DNA of 64,000 bases, from contig VLTN01000006.1 in assembly GCA_008330645.1 (NCBI GenBank), positions 620,001 through 684,000 of the forward strand. The letters run 5' to 3'. Position numbers and translations under genes: made by a program. Each line of letters starts with the position of its first letter. Position 1 is the stretch's first letter. The notes under the pieces are model-generated. The model made no database searches. It saw only the letters and a program-made list of their open reading frames with translations, and was not told the origin of the DNA. Below are positions 16,278 to 62,663 of this stretch, in pieces. Source of the stretch: Cafeteria roenbergensis. Lineage: Eukaryota; Sar; Bigyra; Bicosoecida; Cafeteriaceae.

Positions 16278-16380
<103 letters not shown>

Positions 16381-47486: not shown

Positions 47487-48217
47487 TCACGCCTCCTCGT
47501 CCATGCCGCCCTCCCCGTGCGCAGCCTCGAGCTCGGCCCGGAGGGCGTCATTCTCCGCCGCCAGCGCGTCGTTCTCCTCCCTGAGGCGCTCGTTCTCGGC
47601 TCGCAGGGCCTCGACGTCCGTGCCGGCGGCCGAGCCCAGGTACCGCTTGATGTACTCCACGGCGTTGGGGGGGCGCTCGGGCTCTTCGTACAAGCCCACG
47701 AGCACTGCGCGCGGAAGAGGGGCACACGATGCTCGGCACGGGGCGACGGGGAGTGAACAACGAGCGCGGAGGGCTCCCACAAAGCGATGCACGGCGCCAG
47801 CGCTGGCCCGGCCGGGCGTCGCAGACGCACCCTTAGTCATGGAGTCAATCACCCCGGCCTTCTCCAGGTACTTCCGGAACTCCTCCTTCTTGGCGTCGGG
47901 CGTCTGCGCGGCACATGGGTCGGACGCACAGGCCAGGCAATGGTTCAAGGCGCGAAAGGGCTGCTGCGCGAGGTGCGGGCCGCCCGCCTCTGACGGCGCA
48001 CCGCTCGGACAGCTTTTCGCCAGCGCGCCAGCGGCGCACCCGAGCCCGCGCGTTCGCCATGAGGCGCCTGGGGCCAAGGACGCGCAGCCCGCGAGATTGC
48101 CAACGGCAACGCGGCTCGACTCGCTTCCAAGGCCGGCCCAGACTTGCCCCCATTGCGCCCCCGCATTGCGGATGCAGTGCTGGTGCTGAGCAGCCTTACC
48201 TGGTAGGTGGTCGCCAT
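47487..48217 (-). CDS. MYCBP: MYCBP (AMY-1) homolog, ciliary central-pair/AKAP-associated protein
   Basis: Three exons (48217-48200, 47903-47831, 47704-47487) give 102 aa, close to human MYCBP at 103 aa. Exon 1 encodes only MATTYQ. Donors are GTAAGG and GTGCGT, two of the few non-GTGAG donors here; acceptors are CGCAG. The family core is clear: KKEEFRKYLEKAGVIDSMTK then VLVGLYEEPERPPNAVEYIK, corresponding to human REQFRRYLEKSGVLDTLTK and VLVALYEEPEKPNSALDFLK. A leucine/Glu coiled coil follows (ALRAENERLREENDALAAEN) and an acidic end. MYCBP binds AKAPs; in Chlamydomonas the homolog FAP174 is a central-pair protein. A ciliary role is likely given kinesin-9 next door, which works on the same apparatus. 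The two genes are tail-to-tail. Confidence 0.92.
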
Positions 48218-48453
48218 GCTTCCGGCGAGAGGCGCGGGGGAAGCACCGAGTGGCAAACTCACGCGCGCAACAGCGTCATTTGCGGTCGGGCTGCGAATCT
48301 GGCGCATGATTGGGAGCCATAGTTGGGCGACTGTTTTCTTGCGCGAACACAAACTGAGACGCCGGGTTCCGCCCCGCACCCTGCCGCCCCACTCGCGCTC
48401 CGGAAGGCCACGGGGCGGCCCCGGACCCCGGACTCGATCCAGCACCTGCCGCA
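48218..48453. promoter_or_regulatory. Divergent intergenic region, putative bidirectional promoter
   Basis: These 236 bp separate the start codons of MYCBP (-) and the PH-PP2C phosphatase (+). No clear motif is visible. Confidence 0.35.
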
Positions 48454-51400
48454 ATGGCCGTCTCCTTCCAAAATGTCCGCACGCCACAAGACTACTTGCG
48501 GCATATGCGGTGAGCGCGAGCGCAGCCTGGCGCTGGCCGTCGTCGAACAGCTGCAGCCGATGCCAGCGTCCGCCGAGGCCTCCGGCCAGCGGCATCGCGC
48601 GGCAGGGATCGCCTCTCTCGGCGGAAGCCGGGCAACGTGGTGGGCCAGGCTCCCGGCCCCCCAGGCGCGGGCGCCCCCGGCTGCTTCGTGCCGAAGTTGC
48701 CCGCCGGCCGAAAGGAATTCGCTTCTCCCGACCGGTCCCCGGGCCAGCGCTCCGGCCACCACCCCTGCGCCCTTGTCCCTCCCCGCCGCTGCCCCGCCGC
48801 GCCTGCAGTCCATCGACGCGTCAGGGCTACCTTGACGTCCGCTCGGCCCGTGACCAGACCTGGCGCAAGCGCTGGTTTGTCTTGGAGGTGAGCTATCCGG
48901 CCTTCAAGCGCGGTGGCCGCTGGCCGGAGCCCGCGCTCCCGTTCCTCCCCACCTCCTGAACAGGGACCGCCCCGCGCCGATGCGACTCTGGCATGTCTGT
49001 TCCGTTTCCCCCACGCCATTGTGGGGGCGCTGGCGCCCGCCGAGGCCGACAGAGGGCCGGCGGGCGCTGGAGTGTGGCACTGGTGACGTTGGTTGGCGTT
49101 CTCGAAGAAACACCCGGCGCCGAGTCCCGTCCGAGTCTCAAGCTGCGCGCGTTCGCCCTCTTGCCCCCCCCCCCTCACACCGGGTGTCCTGCAGAAGGAT
49201 TCTCTTGCGGTGTTCAATTTTGACCCGGCCGAGGGAGGCACAGAACAGCGCCGCGTGTTTCTGGACGAGATCAACGGACTCTCTCGGGGCGTTTCCTCCA
49301 ACTCCGCGGCCATGCGCTCGGCCGCTCACACCCACCCGGGCGCAGACGCACTGACCCTCGCAGCAGCCGCCAACGCCGTGCCCCCCGGCGGCGACGACTC
49401 GGACAGCGACCGAATCTTCGTCGTGCGCATGTCGTCTGGCACAATGATGCTGCGCGCCGAGTCTGCCGACGTCAGCGTGGACTGGATGTTCGGCTTCCAG
49501 TGCGCCATCGTCACCATGGTCCTCAGCGCCATTCATGAAATGCCTGACGCCGCAGCTGTCGGCTCCGCGGGTTGGCAGTCGCTGTGGCAGCGCCAAGCAG
49601 CCGAGGCCGCCGACGGCGCCGTGTCGTCCGCAGGTGCCTCCGCAAGCGGAGCCGGGCGCGCCCCCGCGAGCACGGCAGGCTCCGGTCTGGGGGCAGCAAT
49701 TGGCAAGGCCCCCCGTGCCATGAGCGGGAGCGAAACATCGCTCTCGATGCAGCGGGAGACGTCGGACGGCATGAGGTCGATCTCTCACGGCGTCATCGCG
49801 GCAGAGACAGCCCGCCTCCACGGCCACCACACCAGCGGCCGTGTCGCAAGCCCTGCAAGCGGCAGTGGCAGCGGCAGTGGCAGCGGTGCCGTTGACTTTG
49901 CATCGACGAGGCCCGTCCCGACGACCGGACGAGGGGCTCGCCCATTCGCAGCCCGGCCCTTCCCTCCGGCTGCGGGCGCTCGGGTCGGGCTGCCTGGCCC
50001 CATCGGGCGCTTTGGCTCGTCAGGAGGGCGACCTGGCGCCGTTGCCGCGTCGCTCCCCACAAGCGGGTCAGGCCTCGCTTGCGCCTTTGGCAGCCCCCAC
50101 CGTCACTCGCGCCCTCAGCCCGTTGACCCGAGCAGCGCGGCTGAGAGCAGTCTGGCGGGCCTGTTCGAGGAGGAGGACGACGAGACGCCTGAGGAGGAGG
50201 ACGCCCCCACGCCCAGCTCGGGCCTGGGCCTCGGTGCGCCGAGGGGGGCTCCGGCAGCGGGCGGCACCCCCTCGCCCGCTGGAGCATCCGACGTCAGCGA
50301 TGCGTCGGGACCCGGCACCTCCGCGTCCCCGGCGAGCGGCCTCGGAGCCGCGCTTGGGGCATCCCAGACGGCCCCCCAGGTCGCCGCGCCGGAGCCGCCG
50401 CTGAGCGAGGAGGACAGACGATTCCTTATCCTGGAGGAGCGTTTCAAGGCCAAATGTCACATCCTCGCCTCAAGGCTCGAGTCCATGCAAGAGTGGCAGC
50501 GCCGGACCGGCCGTCCCGTCCTCGGCCCGGTATCCAAGCCCACCATGCGGCGCGGCGTTTCGGCCCCCGAGCAGGGCGCCAGCCTGAGCGACCTTCTGTT
50601 CGGCCCCGTCAAGACTGAGGCGGAGCAGCACCTCGGGAACGAGTGGCAGGCCTGCGCCGATCACAAGCAGCCGGCAGCGGCCGCCGCGGCGGCCGCTCGC
50701 CAGCCCCCCTCCACCAAGCATCGCGCTGACAAGGGCGCATTCGGCGGCAAAGGCGAGGGCGTGGGGACGTGGGGCGTGTGGGGCTGCCAGGGCATCCGCG
50801 AGTTCATGGACGACGCCCACCTGTCGCGTCCCAGTACGCACCCGGACGCCCCGCTCCTGGCGGCGGAGCGACGCGTGTCGCTCTATGGCGTGTTCGACGG
50901 CCACTCCGGGTGCGCGGCAGCCGAGTTCGTCGCCCGGGACATGCCCGCGAGGCTGGACCACCTTGTGCTCCCAGCCCTCGCCGAGCTCCCCGCGGGGACG
51001 AGTCCCGGGACAGTGGCGGCCGAGGTGGGCCCATCTTTCGTGCAGGCGTTCCAGGAAACGGACACGGCCTTCGGCCGCCGCGTGGAGCGGATCAAGGACG
51101 GGGAGCCAGAAGCGGAACTGTTGCCGGGCACGGGCGGCATCGGGTCCGGAACCACGGCGCTGGTCGCGCTGGTGGACCACACTGCACGGATCGTCGTTGT
51201 GGCGTCGGTTGGGGACTGCCGCGCCATCGTGGCAGGGACCGCAGCTGCCGGTGGCTGCCCCGACGCCTCGGCCACAGCAGCGCTCTGGCTTGGACACACA
51301 GCCTCCGCCGGGACCGTCGCTGAGAGTGACTCGGGTGTCCCGACCCTGACGGCCAGCGATTGGCCCGAGCAGTTCGGCCGCGTCTCGGCGGTGGACATGG

Positions 51401-51954
51401 TGCCTCCGCACAGCCCCGGCGGGGACCTGGAGCGCGCTCGCATCACCTCCGCTGGTGGCTGGGTCACGCATGAGGAGGAAGCGCTTCTGCCCAAGATGAG
51501 AGGCGGCGAGGTGATGCGGGACTCCTTCGTGATCGCCCGCATGCGCCGGTCGGTTGGCCACGGGCCAAAGGTCCACACCTACCGCGTGTGCGGCGAGCTG
51601 GGCGTGGCTCGCGCTCTGGGGGACGTCAACCTCAAGGAGCCGCTGCTTCACACGTTTGACTTCAATTGGACAACCGCGCCTGACGGGCAGCGACCCAGCT
51701 TCACCGGAGACCTCGTCACAGCCACTCCCGACGTCGGCGTCTTCGCGTTCGACGAGAAAACCGAAGTTATGATCGTTGCCTGCGACGGCCTTTGGGACGT
51801 CATTTCTCCCATTGACGCGGCCAGAGCAGCTTGTGAAGTGCTGCGCGCCGGGGCGTCGCCCAAGATTGCAGCTCGCCGGCTTGCCGAGTGCGCGATCCAC
51901 CTCGGCTCGACCGACAATGTTACGGTGCTTGTGGTCGACCTCAGGGCCCCTTGA
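48454..51954 (+). CDS. PH domain - PP2C (PPM) serine/threonine phosphatase
   Basis: Three exons (48454-48509, 48809-48887, 49195-51954) give 964 aa; phases 2 and 0. Exon 1 (MAVSFQNVRTPQDYLRHMR) was chosen because it is the only nearby ATG exon with the phase needed by exon 2. An N-terminal PH domain (about residues 25-165) starts QGYLDVRSARDQTWRKRWFV. It continues after the second intron with KDSLAVFNFDP, has an inserted Ala-rich loop, and ends SVDWMFGFQCA. About 350 disordered residues follow. The PP2C domain occupies about 555-964: GVWGCQGIREFMDDAH, YGVFDGHSG (metal-binding Asp, about 612), GSGTTALVALVD, SVGDCRAI, GELGVARALGD, ACDGLWDV (about 909) and GSTDNVTVLVV. All metal-binding Asp motifs look intact, so it should be an active Mn/Mg-dependent phosphatase, probably recruited to phosphoinositide membranes. 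Animal PHLPP also pairs PH with PP2C but has leucine-rich repeats, which are absent here. Confidence 0.9.
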
Positions 51955-52189
51955 GCGCCGATGCAATGGAATGAGTCTGCTCTGACTGCCCTTGTGCGTG
52001 TGTGTGGCAAGACCTCGGGTCTGATCGTTTTATTGCCCGGGTTATTTGCTTCGCACCGAACATTGGATCTCCTTCGCCGCGCCGCACCCTCGCAACACAG
52101 CTGGCGCGGCGGTCTTTGGCCCCTCCGCCTGCCGCCTGCTGCGGGACCTCGAGCTGCTCGTTGCACCCAGGGCAAGGCGGAGTCAAACC

Positions 52190-54040
52190 ATGTGCACGCC
52201 GTCGGCCTTCGGGGGCCGCATTGTTTGCATCCCGTCCACCCCGCTTTTCCTGGCCCAGCTCCTCGTCGCCCTCGGCGCCGCATCGTACTTCTTCCTGGCT
52301 GGCTTCCTCTACGTGAGTGCACACCGGCGGCGTCGCATCGCGGGGCGGGGGGCAGCCCGTGCGCGCGCGCCATGCCCTTGCGCGATAGGGCAGCAGCGGT
52401 GGTGGCAGCTCGTTCGGGGCGGCGGACGGCAATCGGCGCATCGGCCGAGCACGCTCCGCTCTCGCCCGGCTGCGGCGCCCGCGTCCGCGGTCGCGCGGCG
52501 CTGGGTTGCAGTCATGGCGGCCCAGCGGGAGGAGGCCAGGCGGGTTGTCGGCTGGTGGTGGGTGGGCCGCAAGCGTGCGGGGTCGGGCGGTGGCAAGGCC
52601 ACCTTGCCGTGTGGGACTCGACGCCAGGCGCGAGAGCTGCTTGCGGGCGTGTGCTTGCTCGGGTTCGCGCGGCGCAGAACGAGTTCTATGAGGAGGTCGG
52701 GCAGTCCCCGGTGGCGGGGCTGCAGCTGCGAACGGACACGCTCGACTACGCTGCGACTGTGCTGGGCGTGAACGATACGTCTGCGTGCGCCGGGCAGACA
52801 CTGCAGATCCCGGCGTTCGGGTCCAGGTTCGCGACTGCGGGCCCCGGTGCCGCGCCGCTGAACTTCACGCCGTCGTGCTCCGGGTTGGAGGCGGCGCTCA
52901 CCGCCGCCGCCGCCGTGGGGCCGTCCTCGGACGCGCGTCTCCCGACGTCCGTGGTGCGGTACGAGTGGCTGCGCGTGCCGGCGGCGGGGGCCGCGGACGT
53001 GGCTGCGATGGAGTCCCTCGGCTTTCGCGTCGTGCCGTACGCTGGGGGCGCCACGGGGGTGCGCGCCTCTGGGACGGTGTACCGGACGGACGCCCGGCTG
53101 GTGACTCTCGAAGAGACGCTGACAGTGCTTGCGGACGGCCAGGGCAGCGTGGGGACGAGCGGCGAGGTGGAGCCGTACGTGGGACGGGAGTCCCGGTTCG
53201 GGTTCCGCCTGGTCACCTCGTCGGGCGCAGTTGTGAGGCGGTGCCTTCGGGCGGGGGCGCTGGCGACGAATCTGTCGCTGACGGCGTCGGAGCTGGAGTC
53301 CCAGGTGTTCACCGCTTGCGAGGCGGCTGCCGGCGTTCCCGCCCGCGAGCGTCCGGTGCTGACGCTGGACGCGCTGCTCTTCTCTGCGGGCGTGGGCGCG
53401 GGCCTGTCGACTGTGGACGCGTCGCTGGAGGCATCGCTGGTGCGCCTGTCGCAGTCAAACGGGGTGGCGGTGCCGCTCCAGGTTGCTGGCGTGTCGCTCG
53501 ACGTGGAGATGACGTACGACAACCTGCCCGTGCTGGAGCGCAGCCCCGACCCGTCGGCTGTGGCCGTGACGGCCCGTGCGGTGGTGGCAACCGACCGCGA
53601 CGCGTCCTGGGTGGGCTCCAGCATCGGGAGCAGGCCGTCCTGGGAGGCGGTGCCGGGCGCTGCGCATCTCGTGGTGCGTCCGACGGCAGCGGCGGCCTGC
53701 CAGTCGCTCAGCTGGTCGTCGACGTCGGCGGACGTGGCCGCGTGTCTGGCCGCAAGCCCGGGTGGTGCGTCGGAGGCGTTCGACGTGTCCAGCGTTGCTG
53801 CGACAGTGCGGAGCCGCGATGAGACGTTTGGGGCGGTTGTGCGCGCCGTTCCGAGCGGGCGGCTGGTGCGGTTCAGCTACATGGAGCTGGCGTCTCTGGG
53901 CGTGCAGTCGCTCGTGAAGTACCTGCTGGTGTGGGGCGCGGTTCTGCTGTTGGGGGTGCAGTGCTGCCCCGAGCGAGTGCGCAGCGCGGTGTGCTTGACC
54001 GTGCAGGCGGACGGGGACAAGGAGGACGACGGCGACGCGG
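52190..54040 (+). repeat. Direct duplication, left copy (about 1.85 kb)
   Basis: It matches 55980-57835 with about nine substitutions outside one replaced block. Homology begins within a few bases of the start codon and covers exon 1, the 365-nt intron (three differences) and exon 2 through TM2. Offset between copies is exactly 3790 bp through 54030. Flanking sequences on both sides are unrelated. Confidence 0.95.
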
Positions 54041-54513
54041 AAAGTCGTGATGTGACAGCTGACCCGCAGGGGGCTGGGCGCTCGAGTGTGCAGCGCAGGT
54101 CCTCAGTTGATCGCCAGTCTCTAACGGCTATGAGTGCCACTGGATTCGGGAGGTTCGTGTCTCCGCCTCGTCGCGGGCGGGACTTGGACGCTCGCATGTC
54201 GGCGACTAGCTCGAAGGAGGTGTCCAAGGGCATTGATGAGCTGCGGAGCTCGATGGCCGCCCTATCCGGCAATTTCGAAGTGTTCAAAAAGGACGTCGAG
54301 CTAAAGGTGTCGGCCATTTTCGCCCTGGTCGAGGATGCTGGTTCTTCCGTTCAAGAAATGCACAATCGTGTCAGCCGAGTCCGCGAGCAGATTCACGATG
54401 AAATTCGCAGCCTCTACGCCAGGGGCATCGAGGCGAAGGCAGCGAGTGCGGCCAGGGACGCTGTACGACTGGCGCTTACGGGAGTGCCAGCAGGCAGCGG
54501 CGCGCGCGTGTGA
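52190..54513 (+). CDS. Two-pass membrane protein with Cys-rich ectodomain, copy 1 of a mosaic paralog pair
   Basis: Two exons (52190-52312 and 52678-54513) give 652 aa; GTGAGT donor, CGCAG acceptor, phase 0. TM1 is at about residues 17-41 (FLAQLLVALGAASYFFLAGF). A predicted extracytosolic domain of about 400 residues has six Cys and NDT, NFT and NLS sequons. TM2 is at about 447-470 (LVKYLLVWGAVLLLGVQCC). A cytosolic tail of about 180 residues is basic and Ser-rich, then coiled coil (SSKEVSKGIDELRSSMAALS, VSRVREQIHDEIRSLYARGI). The topology resembles P2X or TMEM231-type proteins, but I find no matching signature and assign no family. Exon 1, the intron and most of exon 2 are almost identical to copy 2 at 55980. 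A 42-bp block (52779-52820) and everything after about 54040 differ completely. Confidence 0.85.
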
Positions 54514-54782
54514 AGCTGGCGCTCGCTTGTGAGCCGAGAGCGTCGCCTCGCCAGTGCTCGGAACAAAGAGCTTGATGCGTCTGATTGCGTGAACGACTGA
54601 AATACATTCCACGAATGGCGACCTCCACTCCGGGACACGCGACTTGTGCGCACGCCTGCGCGACTGGAACCGCATACCGCCCTATCAGATGGATGCATTC
54701 TGAAACAAGCCAGCCTCGGGGCCGCTTCACCGAGTGTGACACACAACGTAGTGGTTTGCGTGAGAATGTGCACGGGCAGCCC

Positions 54783-55800
54783 TCAGTGTCCGAGCCGCCA
54801 TAGCGTGAGCAGGCAACGGTGAATCCGATTCAGAAGCGCCCCAGTCAGCCGCCCAAGCCAGCCTCGCAAGCCTGAGCGTTTGGCCTCTTGGGAGGGGCGC
54901 TCAGGCCAATCCGCCCACCCGCGTGCAAGCCTGCCTTGCTCGCAGCCCAGCAGACGACGAAAGCCTCTCGGCCGCGAGGCTCCGCTGGCCATGCAACCAC
55001 GCCTCGCCGTCGTGGCCCGACGCACATCATCTTTGGCATCCAGATCAGCACCACGATCACAAAGGACTCGTGTCACCTCAGCGTGGTCGTTTGTCGACGC
55101 AACCATCAGCGCGGTGCAGCCCTCCTGTCATGCGTGGGGATGGGGGAGGGGAGGAAGACGCACTGGCCCGCCTGGCAACGAGCTGAGTCAGAGTCTGCTC
55201 CCTCAGCAGCTGCCGCCTCACGTCGCTGCGCGACACGACAGCAACCGTGATGCTCATGCCTTGTCCGCGCGTGCGTACCCATTGTGGCAGTCACAGCGCG
55301 GGGGCGAGGAGACCTTGTTGCCTCCGACTGCCCCGTGAAACGCTCCAAACAACCCCTAGCTGCACCTCGGGCCACCGGCATGCCGCTGCGTGTGCGGCAC
55401 GATTGACCTCATCTCGAGCCTCCAGGTCTGCACCGCGGTCCGCAAGCATCCCCACAACATCTGAATCCCCCTTGCGAGCGGCCCAGAGGAGCGCAGTCCA
55501 GTTGTCCTGCGTGGGATTGAACATATCACGCTCCAGCGACTCAAAGCAACAGCAGTGTGGCATGAACTCCACTCTGTGATCTCCCCACGGATCAATGATT
55601 GGGGCTGGTTGTGCTTTTTCTCGCATTTTGCAGTTTGGGCATCCTGGAATGCATCTCGGCCTCCAGCAGCCGCGCTCCACGCTCACGGCGCGAGTGCAAT
55701 TGATGCTTGCTCCGTTATCCAGAACGGCCGCGAGCCCCATCGAATCGCCTCGCTTGGCGGCAGCCAGCAACGCGTCAACCATCGCATCGTCGGCCTCCAT
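54783..55800 (-). CDS. Small ankyrin-repeat protein, 3' end unresolved
   Basis: Exons 55800-55687 (38 codons) and 55506-55408 (33 codons) are followed by an exon starting at 55124. All join in phase 0. Exon 1 encodes the capping helices (MVDALLAAAKRGDSMGLAAV, DNGASIN). The next two exons each encode exactly one 33-residue ankyrin repeat: NWTALLWAARKGDSDVV, LADRGADLEARDE; and GCTALMVASTNDHAEV, LCDRGADLDAKDD. Donors after them are GTCAAT and possibly GTGCGT at 55025. If that last donor is not used, the frame reads on to a stop at 54783, giving 184 aa with a non-repeat tail. If it is used, a short last exon lies to the left; several TGA-ended candidates exist and I cannot choose. The gene lies between the two membrane-protein paralogs and is divergent from copy 2 by 179 bp. 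Protein-protein adaptor role inferred. Confidence 0.65.
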
Positions 55801-55979
55801 GACCGCCACGGCTTGCGTGCGTCGCGACAAGTGTGGGTATGAGCAGCCGAGCCAAGCTGCTCTGCCAGCCGCAACTCGCGCAGCCGCATGCGAGCGCTCA
55901 CCGCGACCCGGCCGCAAGGCGGTCCCAATTCAGGGCCTGTGCAGGGGACGCTGCGCAAGGCGGGATCGCCAGGCCTGCC
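55801..55979. promoter_or_regulatory. Divergent intergenic region, putative bidirectional promoter
   Basis: These 179 bp separate the start codons of the ankyrin gene (-) and paralog copy 2 (+). The sequence is unrelated to the region upstream of copy 1, so the two paralogs probably have different promoters. Confidence 0.4.
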
Positions 55980-57835
55980 ATGTGCACGCCGTCGGCCTTC
56001 GGGGGCCGCATTGTTTGCATCCCGTCCACCCCGCTTTTCCTGGCCCAGCTCCTCGTCGCCCTCGGCGCCGCATCGTACTTCTTCCTGGCTGGCTTCCTCT
56101 ACGTGAGTGCACACCGGCGGCGTCGCATCGCGGGGCGGGGGGCAGCCCGTGCGCGCGCGCCATGCCCTTGCGCGATAGGGCAGCAGCGGTGGTGGCAGCT
56201 CGTTCGGGGCGGCGGACGGCAATCGGCGCATCGGCCGAGCACGCTCCGCTCTCGCCCGGCTGCGGCGCCCGCGTCCGCGGTCGCGCGGCGCTGGGTTGCA
56301 GTCATGGCGGCCCAGCGGGAGGAGGCCAGGCGGGTTGTCGGCTGGTGGTGGGTGGGCCGCAAGCGTGCGGGGTCGGGCGGTGGCAAGGCCATCTTGCCGT
56401 GTGGGACGCGACGCCAGGCGCGAGAGCTGCTTGTGGGCGTGTGCTTGCTCGGGTTCGCGCGGCGCAGAACGAGTTCTATGAGGAGGTCGGGCAGTCCCCG
56501 GTGGCGGGGCTGCAGCTGCGAACGGACACGCTCGACTACGCTGCGACTGTGCTGGGCGTGAACGATACAGCCACCTGCAGCATTCCCAGCAAGCCTGTGT
56601 CGGTCATGCAGTCCAGGTTCGCGACTGCGGCCCCCGGCGCCGCGCCGCTGAACTTCACGCCGTCGTGCTCCGGGTTGGAGGCGGCGCTCACCGCCGCCGC
56701 CGCCGTGGGGCCGTCCTCGGACGCGCGTCTCCCGACGTCCGTGGTGCGGTACGAGTGGCTGCGCGTGCCGGCGGCGGGGGCCGCGGACGTGGCTGCGATG
56801 GAGTCCCTCGGCTTTCGCGTCGTGCCGTACGCTGGGGGCGCCACGGGGGTGCGCGCCTCTGGGACGGTGTACCGGACGGACGCCCGGCTGGTGACTCTCG
56901 AAGAGACGCTGACAGTGCTTGCGGACGGCCAGGGCAGCGTGGGGACGAGCGGCGAGGTGGAGCCGTACGTGGGGCGGGAGTCCCGGTTCGGGTTCCGCCT
57001 GGTCACCTCGTCGGGCGCAGTTGTGAGGCGGTGCCTTCGGGCGGGGGCGCTGGCGACGAATCTGTCGCTGACGGCGTCGGAGCTGGAGTCCCAGGTGTTC
57101 ACCGCTTGCGAGGCGGCTGCCGGCGTTCCCGCCCGCGAGCGTCCGGTGCTGACGCTGGACGCGCTGCTCTTCTCTGCGGGCGTGGGCGCGGGCCTGTCGA
57201 CTGTGGACGCGTCGCTGGAGGCATCGCTGGTGCGCCTGTCGCAGTCAAACGGGGTGGCGGTGCCGCTCCAGGTTGCTGGCGTGTCGCTCGACGTGGAGAT
57301 GACGTACGACAACCTGCCCGTGCTGGAGCGCAGCCCCGACCCGTCGGCTGTGGCCGTGACGGCCCGTGCGGTGGTGGCAACCGACCGCGACGCGTCCTGG
57401 GTGGGCTCCAGCATCGGGAGCAGGCCGTCCTGGGAGGCGGTGCCGGGCGCTGCGCATCTCGTGGTGCGTCCGACGGCAGCGGCGGCCTGCCAGTCGCTCA
57501 GCTGGTCGTCGACGTCGGCGGACGTGGCCGCGTGTCTGGCCGCAAGCCCGGGTGGTGCGTCGGAGGCGTTCGACGTGTCCAGCGTTGCTGCGACAGTGCG
57601 GAGCCGCGATGAGACGTTTGGGGCGGTTGTGCGCGCCGTTCCGAGCGGGCGGCTGGTGCGGTTCAGCTACATGGAGCTGGCGTCTCTGGGCGTGCAGTCG
57701 CTCGTGAAGTACCTGCTGGTGTGGGGCGCGGTTCTGCTGTTGGGGGTGCAGTGCTGCCCCGAGCGAGTGCGCAGCGCGGTGTGCTCGACCGTGCAAACGG
57801 ACGGGGACAAGGAGGACGACGTCGGCGACGCGGGA
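55980..57835 (+). repeat. Direct duplication, right copy (about 1.85 kb)
   Basis: Partner of 52190-54040. The replaced 42-bp block lies at 56569-56610. Homology fades at about 57822-57835, where copy 2 has an extra GTC codon before the sequences part. Confidence 0.95.
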
Positions 57836-58261
57836 AGAGCCGACCACTCGTCGGTACGCCTCGCGTCCACTGCGGCACCGCTTTCGGCCGCCCCCAGTCA
57901 AGCTGGCGGGCTTCGGAGGCGTGGCGCCGGCACCATCGGTGGCGCAAGCCACGAGGACGATGGCGGCCCAGAGTCTGTCCTCGAGACCGTTGCAGCCAAT
58001 TTGGCGACCATGGACGAGGAGCTGACGACTGAGCGCGAGTCGATTCGACAGTACGTTGCGCTTTTCTCCAAAACAGTCCGGGCAACGTTTGGCGACTTGG
58101 CAAGTCTCGACCGCTCGCTCAAGAGCCTGACAACAGTAGTCGAAGACGACATTCGCGAGCGTTTCTCGCCCGCCATCGCAGAGGTGGCGCAGCGTGCAGC
58201 GCGGGACGAGGTGGTACGAACCCTGACTGGCAAGGGCATTGCTGAGATGGCGTCCAGCTGA
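55980..58261 (+). CDS. Two-pass membrane protein with Cys-rich ectodomain, copy 2 of a mosaic paralog pair
   Basis: Two exons (55980-56102 and 56468-58261) give 638 aa. Exon 1, both membrane segments and nearly all of the ectodomain are identical to copy 1. The six ectodomain Cys positions are kept. The variable block encodes NDTATCSIPSKPVSVMQSRF where copy 1 has NDTSACAGQTLQIPAFGSRF, so the Cys and the flanks are conserved while the loop is new. After TM2 the tail is unrelated to that of copy 1 yet of the same kind: acidic start (DGDKEDDVGDAG), a basic Ser/Gly-rich part (QAGGLRRRGAGTIGGAS), then about 110 residues of coiled coil (SVLETVAANLATMDEELTTE, LASLDRSLKSLTTVVEDDIR). This suggests the same topology with a swapped recognition loop and swapped cytosolic partner. 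Family unknown. Confidence 0.85.
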
Positions 58262-58799
58262 ACCCAGGCGACAGTTTGAGTTGATTTCGTGCCTGCGTGA
58301 AGTGCCTCTTGGGCGCCCCCGCCAATCGGTGCTGCGTTGTCCTTGGTGCAAAGGAAGCGGTGAATGCCCCTCTGCGGCCCAGTGGTGTTGTAGCTGGGCT
58401 CCGAGCAAGGCCGTGGCTGGGCGGCACTTCGCGTCGGGCGCGCGCTATGGTTTCGCTTCTCGGGGTTACAGAGCCGCGGCCCGGCCCCAAAGCCTGCACC
58501 CCGCGGAACCAGCGGGCCACGAGCCCGAGCCGCTGCCACCGGGGCTGCATTGCAAGGAGCCGGGTGTCGCCTTTTGTGCCAAGCGATGCGTGGGGGCACG
58601 ATAGATGTGGCGCCGACTGGCAGGGGGGAGTTTGAGTCCCACTCCCGCGTCGCAGGCGAGCGCTGGTCCCGACGCCCGTTCACGCCATGCCCCTCAACGA
58701 AGGAAGTCCGCCGAGTCCTTGGAATCGGCACGGCACCAGCATCGCACTGGTTGGGTGTGCCGGTGCACACGCTGACCCGTCGGGAGCCACGGTCGCACG
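58262..58799. other. Intergenic region without recognised gene
   Basis: This 538-bp gap lies between two plus-strand genes. GGGGGGAGTTTGAGTCCCAC at about 58623-58642 looks superficially like a tRNA T-arm, but the loop is too long. No gene is recognised. It presumably holds the 3' UTR of copy 2 and the promoter of the next gene. Confidence 0.4.
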
Positions 58800-60216
58800 A
58801 TGCGCGCGCTGTCACGCTTCGCCGACGGGCTGCCCCAACGCCCGTGGGCCTCGCCAACGACCCCCTCCCAAGCTTTCGCCATGTCGAGGTGAGTGGCCCT
58901 GGCCTGCGCGTTGCCATGGGGGTTTTGTGGCGCCGCCGCCTCGGCCCGCGCGCCCCGTGCCGGGCGCGCTGGTTCGTGCGTTTCTTGTTTGCAGCAGGCC
59001 CAGCCGGTCGCAGCTTGTGGCCTCTGACTCACTTGGGGCCTGGGAGCGCCCGCCATGGCCGGCCGCCCAGGCGTCACCATGGCTTTTCGCTCAGCCTGCT
59101 GAGCGTTGCCTCCCAGTTCGGTTCGCTCTCGCCGCCACGAGTTCTGATTCGCAGAGCGTGGTTGACAGCGGCCTGACGCATTCGGAGCGGCCGGACCCTT
59201 GCAACCCGTGCCGTCGCGTGCGAGCCCGGCGAGTCGTGGTTATGGAGGACCATGGTGGCATATTCCGCCGGAGCGTCACCTCGTACAGCCCGTCACAGAG
59301 CGCTGCAGCGGCAGCGGCAGCGGCAGCAGCAGCGGCGGCGCCACAAACCGCCGAGATCCAGTCTGGGCGATTGGCGCGCTCGCGCCCTCGTGCTTCTCCG
59401 TCACGAGCAACAAGTGCGCCGCGTGCTGGCACGGCGCGATTGAGCCTGTCGGGGCAATCGAGGTCTCGCCAGCGAGCGCGGCCAGCTGGCAAATCGGGAC
59501 CTCCGTTGCGGCCCGAGCAGCAGCCACGACGCGGCGGAGCCAGCCCGAGGCGGTTCTTCACAGACGCTGTCAATGTCGCGGGCTGGCAGCCAATGGCTAG
59601 CCCAGTGCGTCCTGGGCTCTGTGCGGCCGAGCAATGCACGATCAACAGGAGGGTGGAGCCGCTGGAGTCGTGGTCAGCCAGGCTCGAAGAGGTCGAAAGC
59701 GGTATGCCGCTCAGGCGAGCCATGTGGACGGCTCCCGGACCCATGGGGCGCTTGCCCCCCGCTGAGCGTAAGGCGCTCGTGATTGAGCGGCTCAGGCGGG
59801 CCCATCGGAACGCGATTTCGCAGAGCTTGCCGAGTGAACTTCGACAAAATGGGTCAACCGGCAGCATCGCAGGCTTTGGGGCCGCCGACAGCCATGATGG
59901 GTCCACGTGTGAGCCGGAGTGGGACCCCGTAGGGTTCAGCCCTTCGGAGTCGCGGGCCAACGGGCAACCCGCACAGCGACAGGACGCTGCCGATTCCGCC
60001 GGCGCGTTTGACGAGGAACTCTGGGCCCGCTTCGGAGTGGACTCGTGCCAAACGGCGGGTAGCAACGGCAGCGACCCGCGGGCAGACTCGGCACAGTTTG
60101 GCTCGGCCTCCGTCGCGCTGTCGGCCCTGCGGAGAGCGGGGTCCGTTGGGCTTCAGAGCCCGAGGCGGCAAGCCAAGCCACCAGCTCCGAAGCACAGCAT
60201 CACGCGCAAGTTTTGA
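58800..60216 (+). CDS. Disordered protein with one conserved-looking helical segment, unknown function
   Basis: Two exons (58800-58888 and 58995-60216) give 436 aa; GTGAGT donor, TGCAG acceptor, phase 2. The first Met (58800; MRALSRFADGLPQRPW) is used. A second Met at residue 28 (MSSRPSRSQL) is possible. Most of the chain is Ser/Arg/Pro/Ala-rich with a poly-Ala run (about residues 120-135). Residues of about 220-300 look ordered (RRVEPLESWSARLEEVESGM, LPPAERKALVIERLRRAHRN). Short acidic and aromatic motifs follow (FDEELWARFGVDS) and a basic C-terminus (KHSITRKF). No catalytic or targeting motif is recognised. Confidence 0.6.
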
Positions 60217-60713
60217 CCGGGCAGGCATCTGTTCGGAGCTTGTGGGGCTCTTGTGTGACGGCCTGCTTGCGAAAGTGTGGGCGGTTGTGCCTGTGCTCCA
60301 GCTCTAAGCTCGCCCCGCTGCCTCTGCTCGGCCGCGAGCGCCCGTACCCACCCCAAAGGGTGGTACCGCCCTGCCATGCCGTCCGGGGCGGCCCGCGGCC
60401 GGTTCGGCTTGGTGGTGCGGCCGTGGCGGGCCCATCGCGCATTGTTCCGCCAGACTTGTCGCCAGCCCTTGGCCTGCGGAAGCCGCGAGGGACGCATAGG
60501 CATGGTGGCAGCGGGCGCACGCGTGGGCTACGCCTTTGGCGGCGGTGTGCGTTCCCATGGACGGCCTTGCGCCAGCTTGCTGCGCCCACCAGATTGATCT
60601 TTGCCTCTCAAGACCAATCGCGCGACAACCCCCCAACTCTGCCGGAATGCTCGGCCCGCGGCATCGTCGCTGGAAGCAGTCCGGCCACACAACCTCCTCC
60701 CGAGCGACAAAGG
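60217..60713. other. Intergenic region without recognised gene
   Basis: This 497-bp stretch lies upstream of pyruvate kinase, on the same strand as the preceding gene. It must contain the pyruvate kinase promoter. No TATA-like or other motif stands out. Confidence 0.4.
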
Positions 60714-62663
60714 ATGGCCGCTGCAAGCGCCGCAGCCCCTGGCAGCATGTTCAGCAAGAAGCCCATCGGGTGAGCCCGCGCATACCGCGTGCCTCTCGCG
60801 GCCAGGGCTCGCGAGCGCCTCCGACAGAGCACGAAGATTCGCCCAATGGCCGCGCTTGACCTGTTTCCGCCGCCCTTGCGAGCCCGCAGGCTTGCTGAGA
60901 TCTACGCCGAGACCGACGTATCGACCAGGTGCACCAAGGTGAGTCGCCCCTCGCATGGACGCCGCCTGGGCGCCGTCGGCGGCGGCGGAAATGACCTGGC
61001 TTGGGCGGGCAAAGCGTCCGGGGGTCAAGCGCTGGGTGGTAGCAGCGCAGCGAGTGTCTGGCGGCCCGGGAAGGCGCGCCGCGGGGAGCAAAGCGGCCAA
61101 CCCAGAGCACCGCGGTGCGGTCGTCGCGCGACTGCAGCTGTGCGGGAGGGAGTCGTGCTGACTGCTGGAGCTCTCGTGGGTCACTCGCGGTTCCGACTCT
61201 TGCGCCATTTGCCGCCTCCTTCACGTGTCCCGCAGATCGTGTGCACCATCGGCCCGTCGTCCTGGGACAAGGACCGGCTTGTCGAGATGATCGATGCTGG
61301 CATGAACGTTGCCCGCCTGAACTTTTCCCACGGAGACCACGAGCGCCACGCCCTCACCGTGGAGGCGATCCGCGCCGCTGCCGCCGAGCGCCCTGGCTGC
61401 AACGTGGCCATTCTGCTCGACACCAAGGGCCCGGAGATCCGGACCGGCATGCTCAAGGGCCACACTCCCGTGCAGCTGACTGCCGGCCAGCGCCTGAAGA
61501 TCTCGACCGACTACACGCTTGAGGGCGACGCAGAGACCATCTGCTGCTCGTACGCCAGCCTCCCGAGGTCGGTTGTTCCGGGGAACGTCATCCTGGCCGC
61601 CGACGGCTCCGTGGTGATGGTCGTCGAGGAGATCCTTGAGGACGGCGTCATCGTGACGGTCCGCAACGACGCGCTGCTCGGCGAGCGCAAGAACATGAAC
61701 CTGCCGGGCGTCATCGTGGACCTCCCCACCATCACGGCCAAGGACGAGGACGACCTCGTGAACTTTGCCGTGCCCCAGGGCGTGGACTTCATCGCCGCTT
61801 CCTTCGTGAGGAAGGGCTCCGACATCGACGTCATCCGCGAGGCTCTCGGCCACGCCGGCGCCGGCATCCGTATCATCGCCAAGATCGAGAACCAGGAGGG
61901 CCTTGACAACTTCCCCGAGATCCTCGCTCGCGCCGACGGCATCATGGTCGCCCGTGGTGACCTCGGAATGGAGATCCCGACGGAGAAGGTCTTCCTCGCC
62001 CAGAAGATGATGATCGCCGCCTGCAACCACGCGGGCAAGACCGCCATCACGGCCACCCAGATGCTTGAGTCCATGATCAAGAACCCCCGCCCCACCCGCG
62101 CCGAGGCCGCCGACGTGGCCAACGCCGTTCTCGACGGCACGGATGCGGTGATGCTCTCCGGCGAGTCCGCGGCGGGAAAGTTCCCCCTGGAGGCCGTCAC
62201 CGTCATGTCCCGCATCTGCGTGGAGGCGGAGCGCGTGCTCGGCTACAGCCGCTTCGACACCGCCATGCGCTGGGCTGGCCTCAGCGACGACGACGAGGGC
62301 GTGCCCGAGTCCATCGCGTCCTCCGCTGTCAAGACCGCGGGCGACCTCGGCGCCCGTGCCATCATCGTCTGCTCGCAGACCGGCGGCACTGCCCGCCTCG
62401 TGGCCAAGTACCGCGCCCCTCAGGCCATTCTCGTCCTCACGGCCGACGACCAGATCTCGCGCCAAGTCACCGGCCTCACCCGCGGCGCGCGCGCCATCAA
62501 CGTGGGCTCCATGCTCGGCACGGATGCCCTGCTCCTTCGCGCCGTGGAGCAGCTGCGCGAGGACGGCATCGTTGACACCGGCGACCGCGTCGTGGCCGTT
62601 CACGGCATGATCGAGGCGCACCCCGGCTCCACCAACCTCCTCAAGGTTATGGTCGTGTCCTGA
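60714..62663 (+). CDS. PK: Pyruvate kinase
   Basis: Three exons (60714-60769, 60890-60938, 61236-62663) give 510 aa, the usual length. Phases 2 and 0 fit. The second junction restores TKIVCTIGPSS, a family hallmark. Further motifs in order: NVARLNFSHGDHERH, LLDTKGPEIRTGML, the catalytic Lys in IIAKIENQEG, GIMVARGDLGMEIP (metal and phosphate binding), TATQMLESMIKNPRPTRAEA and DAVMLSGESAAGKFPLEAV. The C-terminal domain is complete and ends LKVMVVS. The enzyme converts phosphoenolpyruvate and ADP to pyruvate and ATP at the last step of glycolysis. No signal or transit peptide precedes the conserved start, so it should be cytosolic. Codon choice is strongly biased to C-ending codons with fewer Ala runs than neighbouring genes, consistent with high expression (inferred). 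Confidence 0.97.

Follow-up and report, generated by a model that had tools for sequence, protein, structure and literature searches.

Tandem Paralogs for a Predicted Two-pass Membrane Protein of Cafeteria roenbergensis Form a Sequence Mosaic Consistent with Gene Conversion around a Divergent Loop and Tail

A 64,000-nucleotide stretch of the Cafeteria roenbergensis genome (GCA_008330645.1, contig VLTN01000006.1, positions 620,001 to 684,000; the whole stretch is referred to as the window) carries two direct copies of a gene on the + strand, termed A (52190-54513) and B (55980-58261). Together they form a real and well delimited mosaic, in which a body that is nearly identical from start codon to tail, intron included, is interrupted by a wholly divergent 42-bp block and is followed by strongly divergent tails. 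On balance, it is likely that A and B are old tandem paralogs, the body of which has been homogenised by gene conversion while one outer loop and the tail remained divergent.

Divergence between the Two Copies

Self-comparison of the window returned a single direct repeat (52188-54044 versus 55978-57837), and the stretch common to A and B measures 1.82 kb. Alignment of the copies within 52188-54007 showed that, apart from the block, nine of 1,778 bp are substituted (0.51%), at 52602, 52618, and 52644 (all three intronic), 52841, 52848, 53184, 53996, 54006, and 54007. Past the last of these sites, where homology fades at the beginning of the tails, there follow a 3-bp indel (54029) and one further substitution (54041). 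At the opposite edge, near-identity begins 2 bp upstream of the ATG, and no substitution was found in the first 412 bp of the repeat. Along most of their length, intron included, the two tandem paralogs thus differ very little. Apart from the block, the only amino acid changes before the tails are Gly96Ala, seven residues after the block, and Leu481Ser and Ala485Thr, which adjoin the tail.

The block itself matches at 15 of 42 bases between A and B, a value reached by 11.6% of shuffles (mean of 11.2), and when gaps were permitted the alignment was no better than that of shuffled sequences. Comparisons also ruled out an inversion, a frame-shifted copy, and a locally templated copy. The block begins directly after an N-glycosylation sequon at Asn73, and it is in frame, of conserved length, and free of stop codons. 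Of its 14 residues, 13 differ; the exception is Cys78, encoded by the same codon position in both copies. Such preservation of length and cysteine fits what would be expected of an aligned, diverged loop. Neither block was found at a second place in the whole assembly when 36 of the 42 bases were used with up to three mismatches allowed, and the longest word that the block has in common with the window is 11 bases, where random 42-mers gave a median of 12.

The residual substitutions in the body are clustered near the block. Five of the six core (first six) substitutions lie no more than 180 bp from it, a limit that was set after the sites had been seen (binomial p of 0.0018), and the mean distance of the core substitutions to the block was matched by 27 of 20,000 random placements. 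As judged from the block and these six sites, the profile is a local divergence peak that decays into its flanks, as expected of concertedly evolving duplicates.

No significant alignment of the A and B tails was obtained at the DNA level. The last 96 residues, however, align without gaps when counted back from the stop codon, with 17 of 96 identical. The BLOSUM62 score in this register was 49, a value reached by none of 20,000 heptad-preserving shuffles; 80 shifted registers averaged -57 and peaked at 4. DNA identity in the codon register was 37.1%, as against a mean of 28.1% and a maximum of 34.9% in shifted frames. Local protein alignment gave a similar picture, with scores matched by 9 of 3000 shuffles for the whole tails and by 2 of 3000 for the last 105 residues. 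The tails are taken, from these alignments, as homologous but saturated, i.e. diverged rather than unrelated. As homologous parts far more diverged than the body, they are what would be expected of a duplication older than the body suggests, with the reservation that the halves taken singly give weaker scores. No convincing second copy of either tail was found by sequence search of the whole assembly.

A sequence-only reading that preceded this analysis had described ∼1.85 kb of near-identity with about nine substitutions, a 365-nt intron with three differences, and a block replaced in frame, all of which are borne out by the values above. It had also regarded the tails as unrelated, which the in-register alignment contradicts; the retention of Cys78 and the position of the 5′ edge relative to the start codon were not part of it.

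Origin of the Mosaic

Saturated tails next to a body and intron of 99.5% identity make it probable that the pair is an old one that was homogenised by conversion. A review, in its treatment of the primate red/green opsins, describes how selection that keeps copies apart at a small target leaves divergence peaks there and low divergence elsewhere (PMC3924837). The block and the substitutions that fringe it match this description, and we infer conversion with a selected target as the process. The starting point would be an old tandem pair of full-length genes for a two-pass membrane protein. Interlocus gene conversion would then have homogenised all DNA that could still be aligned, a stretch running from the start codon through the intron to where the tail sets in; the promoters and tails would already have diverged too far to be converted. 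The 14-residue ectodomain loop would have kept its difference, the simplest reason being that conversions which erase it are selected against. Two proteins would result that have the same fold but differ in loop specificity, promoter, and inner partner. Conversion of older paralogs around preserved variable parts was one of two origins proposed in the sequence-only reading, and it agrees with the saturated homologous tails, the clustered substitutions, and the position of the boundaries at the coding start and at the fade of homology.

Several observations weigh against old, homogenised paralogs or narrow what can be concluded from them. DNA alignment of the flanks upstream of A and B gave no significant residual homology. 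The clustering of substitutions concerns only six sites, with a post hoc limit. Taken singly, the tail halves performed less well, being matched by 203 and 220 of 20,000 shuffles, and helical tails have a periodicity in common. Third-position G + C content falls from 0.88 in the body to 0.66-0.69 in the tails of both genes, but this step was rejected as a sign of GC-biased conversion, as the single-copy control gene Dak of the window (one of eight controls) also falls, from 0.79 to 0.66. Pfam returned no family for either protein at E (expect) values up to 1, and AlphaFold2 models were unusable, with a mean predicted local distance difference test score of 33.7 for a two-sequence alignment and 35.7 for the A ectodomain alone; for this reason, no fold search was made. 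Finally, the comparison covers the assembly of one strain, such that conversion is deduced within a single genome.

Conversion may also have homogenised the pair without any selection on the block, which would then be a functionless chance leftover, a heterology too large to pair that was bypassed by conversion tracts. Heterology by itself limits conversion, and nothing in this analysis measures selection. Against this, the block is in frame, has kept its length and Cys78, and contains no stop codon, and it would have had to diverge fully before the last homogenisation even though its flanks were homogenised. Such a leftover is possible, but we think it the less probable account of the loop.

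A partial recent duplication is unlikely. In this scheme, a segment running from the ATG to the tail would have been copied beside another promoter and spliced in frame onto an existing tail, with the block replaced later in one copy. The sharp 5′ edge immediately before the ATG would follow directly, as would the lack of detectable DNA homology outside the repeat. A breakpoint at the ATG would nonetheless be a coincidence, and the similarity of the tails in register up to the stop codon would require that the segment had by chance met an in-frame tail that resembles its own. The block would call for a separate second event that preserved frame, length, and Cys78, and the clustering of the residual substitutions near it would be left without an explanation.

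An artefact of assembly or polishing was also considered, in which polishing with short reads would have removed differences from a 1.8-kb repeat wherever unique anchors were distant, or one copy is chimeric. The assembly procedure given in PMC6972860 included polishing with mapped PacBio reads and afterwards with Illumina reads, as well as removal of redundant contigs that represented separate alleles. Several of the remaining substitutions do lie near the block and the start of the tail, which could act as read anchors. By contrast, the first 412 bp adjoin unique 5′ flanks and yet are free of substitutions. PacBio reads of usual length span one copy, the contig is 796,535 bp long and ends ∼118 kb from the pair, and because flanks, tails, and blocks all differ, A and B are not two alleles assembled in tandem. 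An artefact is thus improbable.

Programmed or frequent exchange, in which silent donors supply new blocks (and tails) and thereby change specificity, would be expected to leave a wholly different block between near-identical flanks, but it is very improbable given that each block occupies one place in the assembly (36 of 42 bases, up to three mismatches), that words common to block and window are no longer than for random 42-mers, that there are no convincing further tails or bodies, and that both genes read open. The second origin proposed in the sequence-only reading, an exchange of cassettes after duplication, for the same reasons finds no support, and the conserved length and cysteine of the block also speak against it.

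Search for Further Family Members

The genome searches score best candidates only, so that family counts are lower bounds. Within this scope, no third member of the A/B family was identified with confidence when all 36.3 Mb of the assembly were searched at the DNA and protein levels, and the members with alternative blocks or tails for which the sequence-only reading had recommended a search did not appear. Neither silent donors nor a larger repertoire, as would accompany cassette switching or antigenic variation, were found. The sequence-only reading had suggested that recognition loop and signalling partner might differ as in mating-type, allorecognition, or antigen-variation systems; two genes that lack spare copies bear little resemblance to antigenic variation, and the assembly paper (PMC6972860) states that a sexual cycle is not known.

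One candidate, on a contig designated C1, was pursued and rejected. It consisted of a weak tail match at 1131662-1131931 (E of 0.008) and an ectodomain match at 1123129-1123335 (E of 0.19), 8 kb apart on one strand. When A was compared with the 179 open reading frames (ORFs) of this region alone, E values of 0.00016 (residues 55-123) and 0.012 (residues 281-354) were obtained in two ORFs arranged in like order; B gave only an E of 0.42, on the first of these. The matches are alanine-rich, the first has neither Cys78 nor Cys108, and the tail match disappeared when the whole protein was used as the query. The candidate was therefore rejected as a chance match, though it might conceivably be a very remote relative; the surroundings give the impression of a soluble repeat protein. 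As a separate observation, the tail match on C1 (- strand) sits in a frame that is open over 8,134 residues, which is remarkable for a genome with introns and may encode a giant coiled-coil protein. Further weak matches to A and B in the assembly all had E values above 0.3.

Collections of virus and prokaryote contigs, which contain no protists, were scanned with two short peptides per scan; none of the 126 (viral) and 162 (genome) pattern matches was confirmed. Among the ten listed of 1,080 literature matches on Cafeteria paralogs, receptors, and gene conversion, none reports the A/B pair, which does not prove that no report exists. By sequence comparison, A and B would be classed as an orphan family. 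This family appears to be new, as does the combination of loop and tail divergence in a membrane protein of a protist; the phenomenon itself, concerted evolution with a divergence peak, is known.

Protein Architecture and Comparison with Known Systems

Both copies have an ectodomain of ∼400 residues with six cysteines (78, 108, 230, 255, 382, and 397) and, besides that at Asn73, sequons at Asn103 and Asn239. From this architecture, A and B are predicted to be two-pass surface or endomembrane proteins, in which the tail would be cytosolic and Cys78 and Cys108 may form a bridge. No solved relative was found in the PDB beyond eight sequences with E values of 0.32-0.63, all on the tail, and these coiled-coil matches were dismissed as chance. 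It is plausible that both tails are coiled coils, the basis being these weak matches together with low-confidence helices in the A model. Rfam gave no match in 48000-62000.

In several respects, the pair resembles systems described in the literature. The primate red/green opsins, with a peak at exon 5, are tandem membrane-protein paralogs homogenised by conversion except for a small divergent functional region (PMC3924837). Vertebrate paired receptors, such as Siglec-11/Siglec-16 (PMC5701461) and CEACAM1/CEACAM3 (PMC5112662), have near-identical ectodomains, maintained by gene conversion, and cytosolic parts that differ. In mammalian TLR1/TLR6, the divergence of tandem receptors is limited by gene conversion (PMC2077338), and in the Tigriopus GOT1 paralogs, islands of divergence persist despite it (PMC3728101).

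There are also clear differences. Unlike in the opsins, divergence in A and B extends to the tail and promoters, and the island covers 42 bp and has reached saturation. Compared with paired receptors, A and B have nearly identical ectodomains and different tails, but the loop differs too; they show no evidence of an immunoglobulin domain or of immunoreceptor tyrosine-based inhibitory or activation motifs (the tails having been scanned by Pfam only), have two hydrophobic segments, and belong to a protist. TLR1/TLR6 are unrelated proteins, and GOT1 is a soluble enzyme rather than a membrane protein.

A and B may be receptors with opposed signalling, and could represent two proteins that are built on one scaffold but differ in loop and inner partner. 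A more specific and rather doubtful proposal is that of a minimal two-receptor recognition system, in which conversion would keep the scaffold common, the 14-residue loop would set binding, and the tails would send different or opposed signals. Such a system would correspond, in a protist, to paired immune receptors, and its targets might be bacteria, giant viruses, or conspecific cells. If the pair does signal differently via a common scaffold, paired-receptor logic would extend beyond animals. If selection holds the loop and tail apart against conversion, the pattern points to 14 residues and a tail of an orphan protein that must matter, and offers a cheap way to locate functional sites in protists, whose surface proteins mostly lack annotation.

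Gene Layout and Setting

The features of both genes are listed in Table 1. Upstream of A, an ORF for a PP2C phosphatase (49093-51954, +; Pfam protein phosphatase 2C, E of 8.1e-33) ends 235 bp before the gene. An ankyrin-repeat gene lies head to head with B, running from 55800 down to ∼54850 on the - strand with the start codons 179 bp apart; its first exon matches Pfam Ank_3 (E of 8.7e-06), and it probably has several exons in changing frames. Because the start of B adjoins this divergent gene and A follows the phosphatase gene, A and B are probably under different promoters. A word common to the two upstream flanks, GCAAGGCGG, was discarded as chance, as 9.3% of 4000 random stretches do equally well.

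Table 1. Features of genes A and B (window positions). Exons and introns were assigned from GT...AG sites and the reading frame only.
Feature	Positions	Strand	Remarks
Gene A exon 1	52190..52312	+	41 codons, including the start; first hydrophobic segment at residues ∼17-42
Gene A intron	52313..52677	+	365 nt; 3 differences from B
Gene A exon 2	52678..54513	+	encodes the ectodomain, the second hydrophobic segment, and the tail up to the stop; protein of 652 aa
Gene A divergent block	52779..52820	+	42 bp; residues 76-89, SACAGQTLQIPAFG; Cys78 common to A and B
Gene A second hydrophobic segment	53896..53970	+	residues 448-472; from hydropathy
Gene A divergent tail	54044..54513	+	from alignment
Gene B exon 1	55980..56102	+	identical to A exon 1
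Gene B intron	56103..56467	+	365 nt
Gene B exon 2	56468..58261	+	protein of 638 aa
Gene B divergent block	56569..56610	+	42 bp; residues 76-89, ATCSIPSKPVSVMQ; Cys78 common to A and B
Gene B second hydrophobic segment	57686..57760	+	residues 448-472; from hydropathy
Gene B divergent tail	57837..58261	+	in register with A counted back from the stop codon

The source organism, Cafeteria roenbergensis (probably strain BVI), is now named C. burkhardae, and is presented in the organism description of PMC6972860 as a bacterivorous stramenopile that is diploid per sequencing data and has no known sexual cycle. Elsewhere in the window, self-comparison revealed a perfect tandem repeat of 6-bp period at 16279-16379, ∼100 bp in length.

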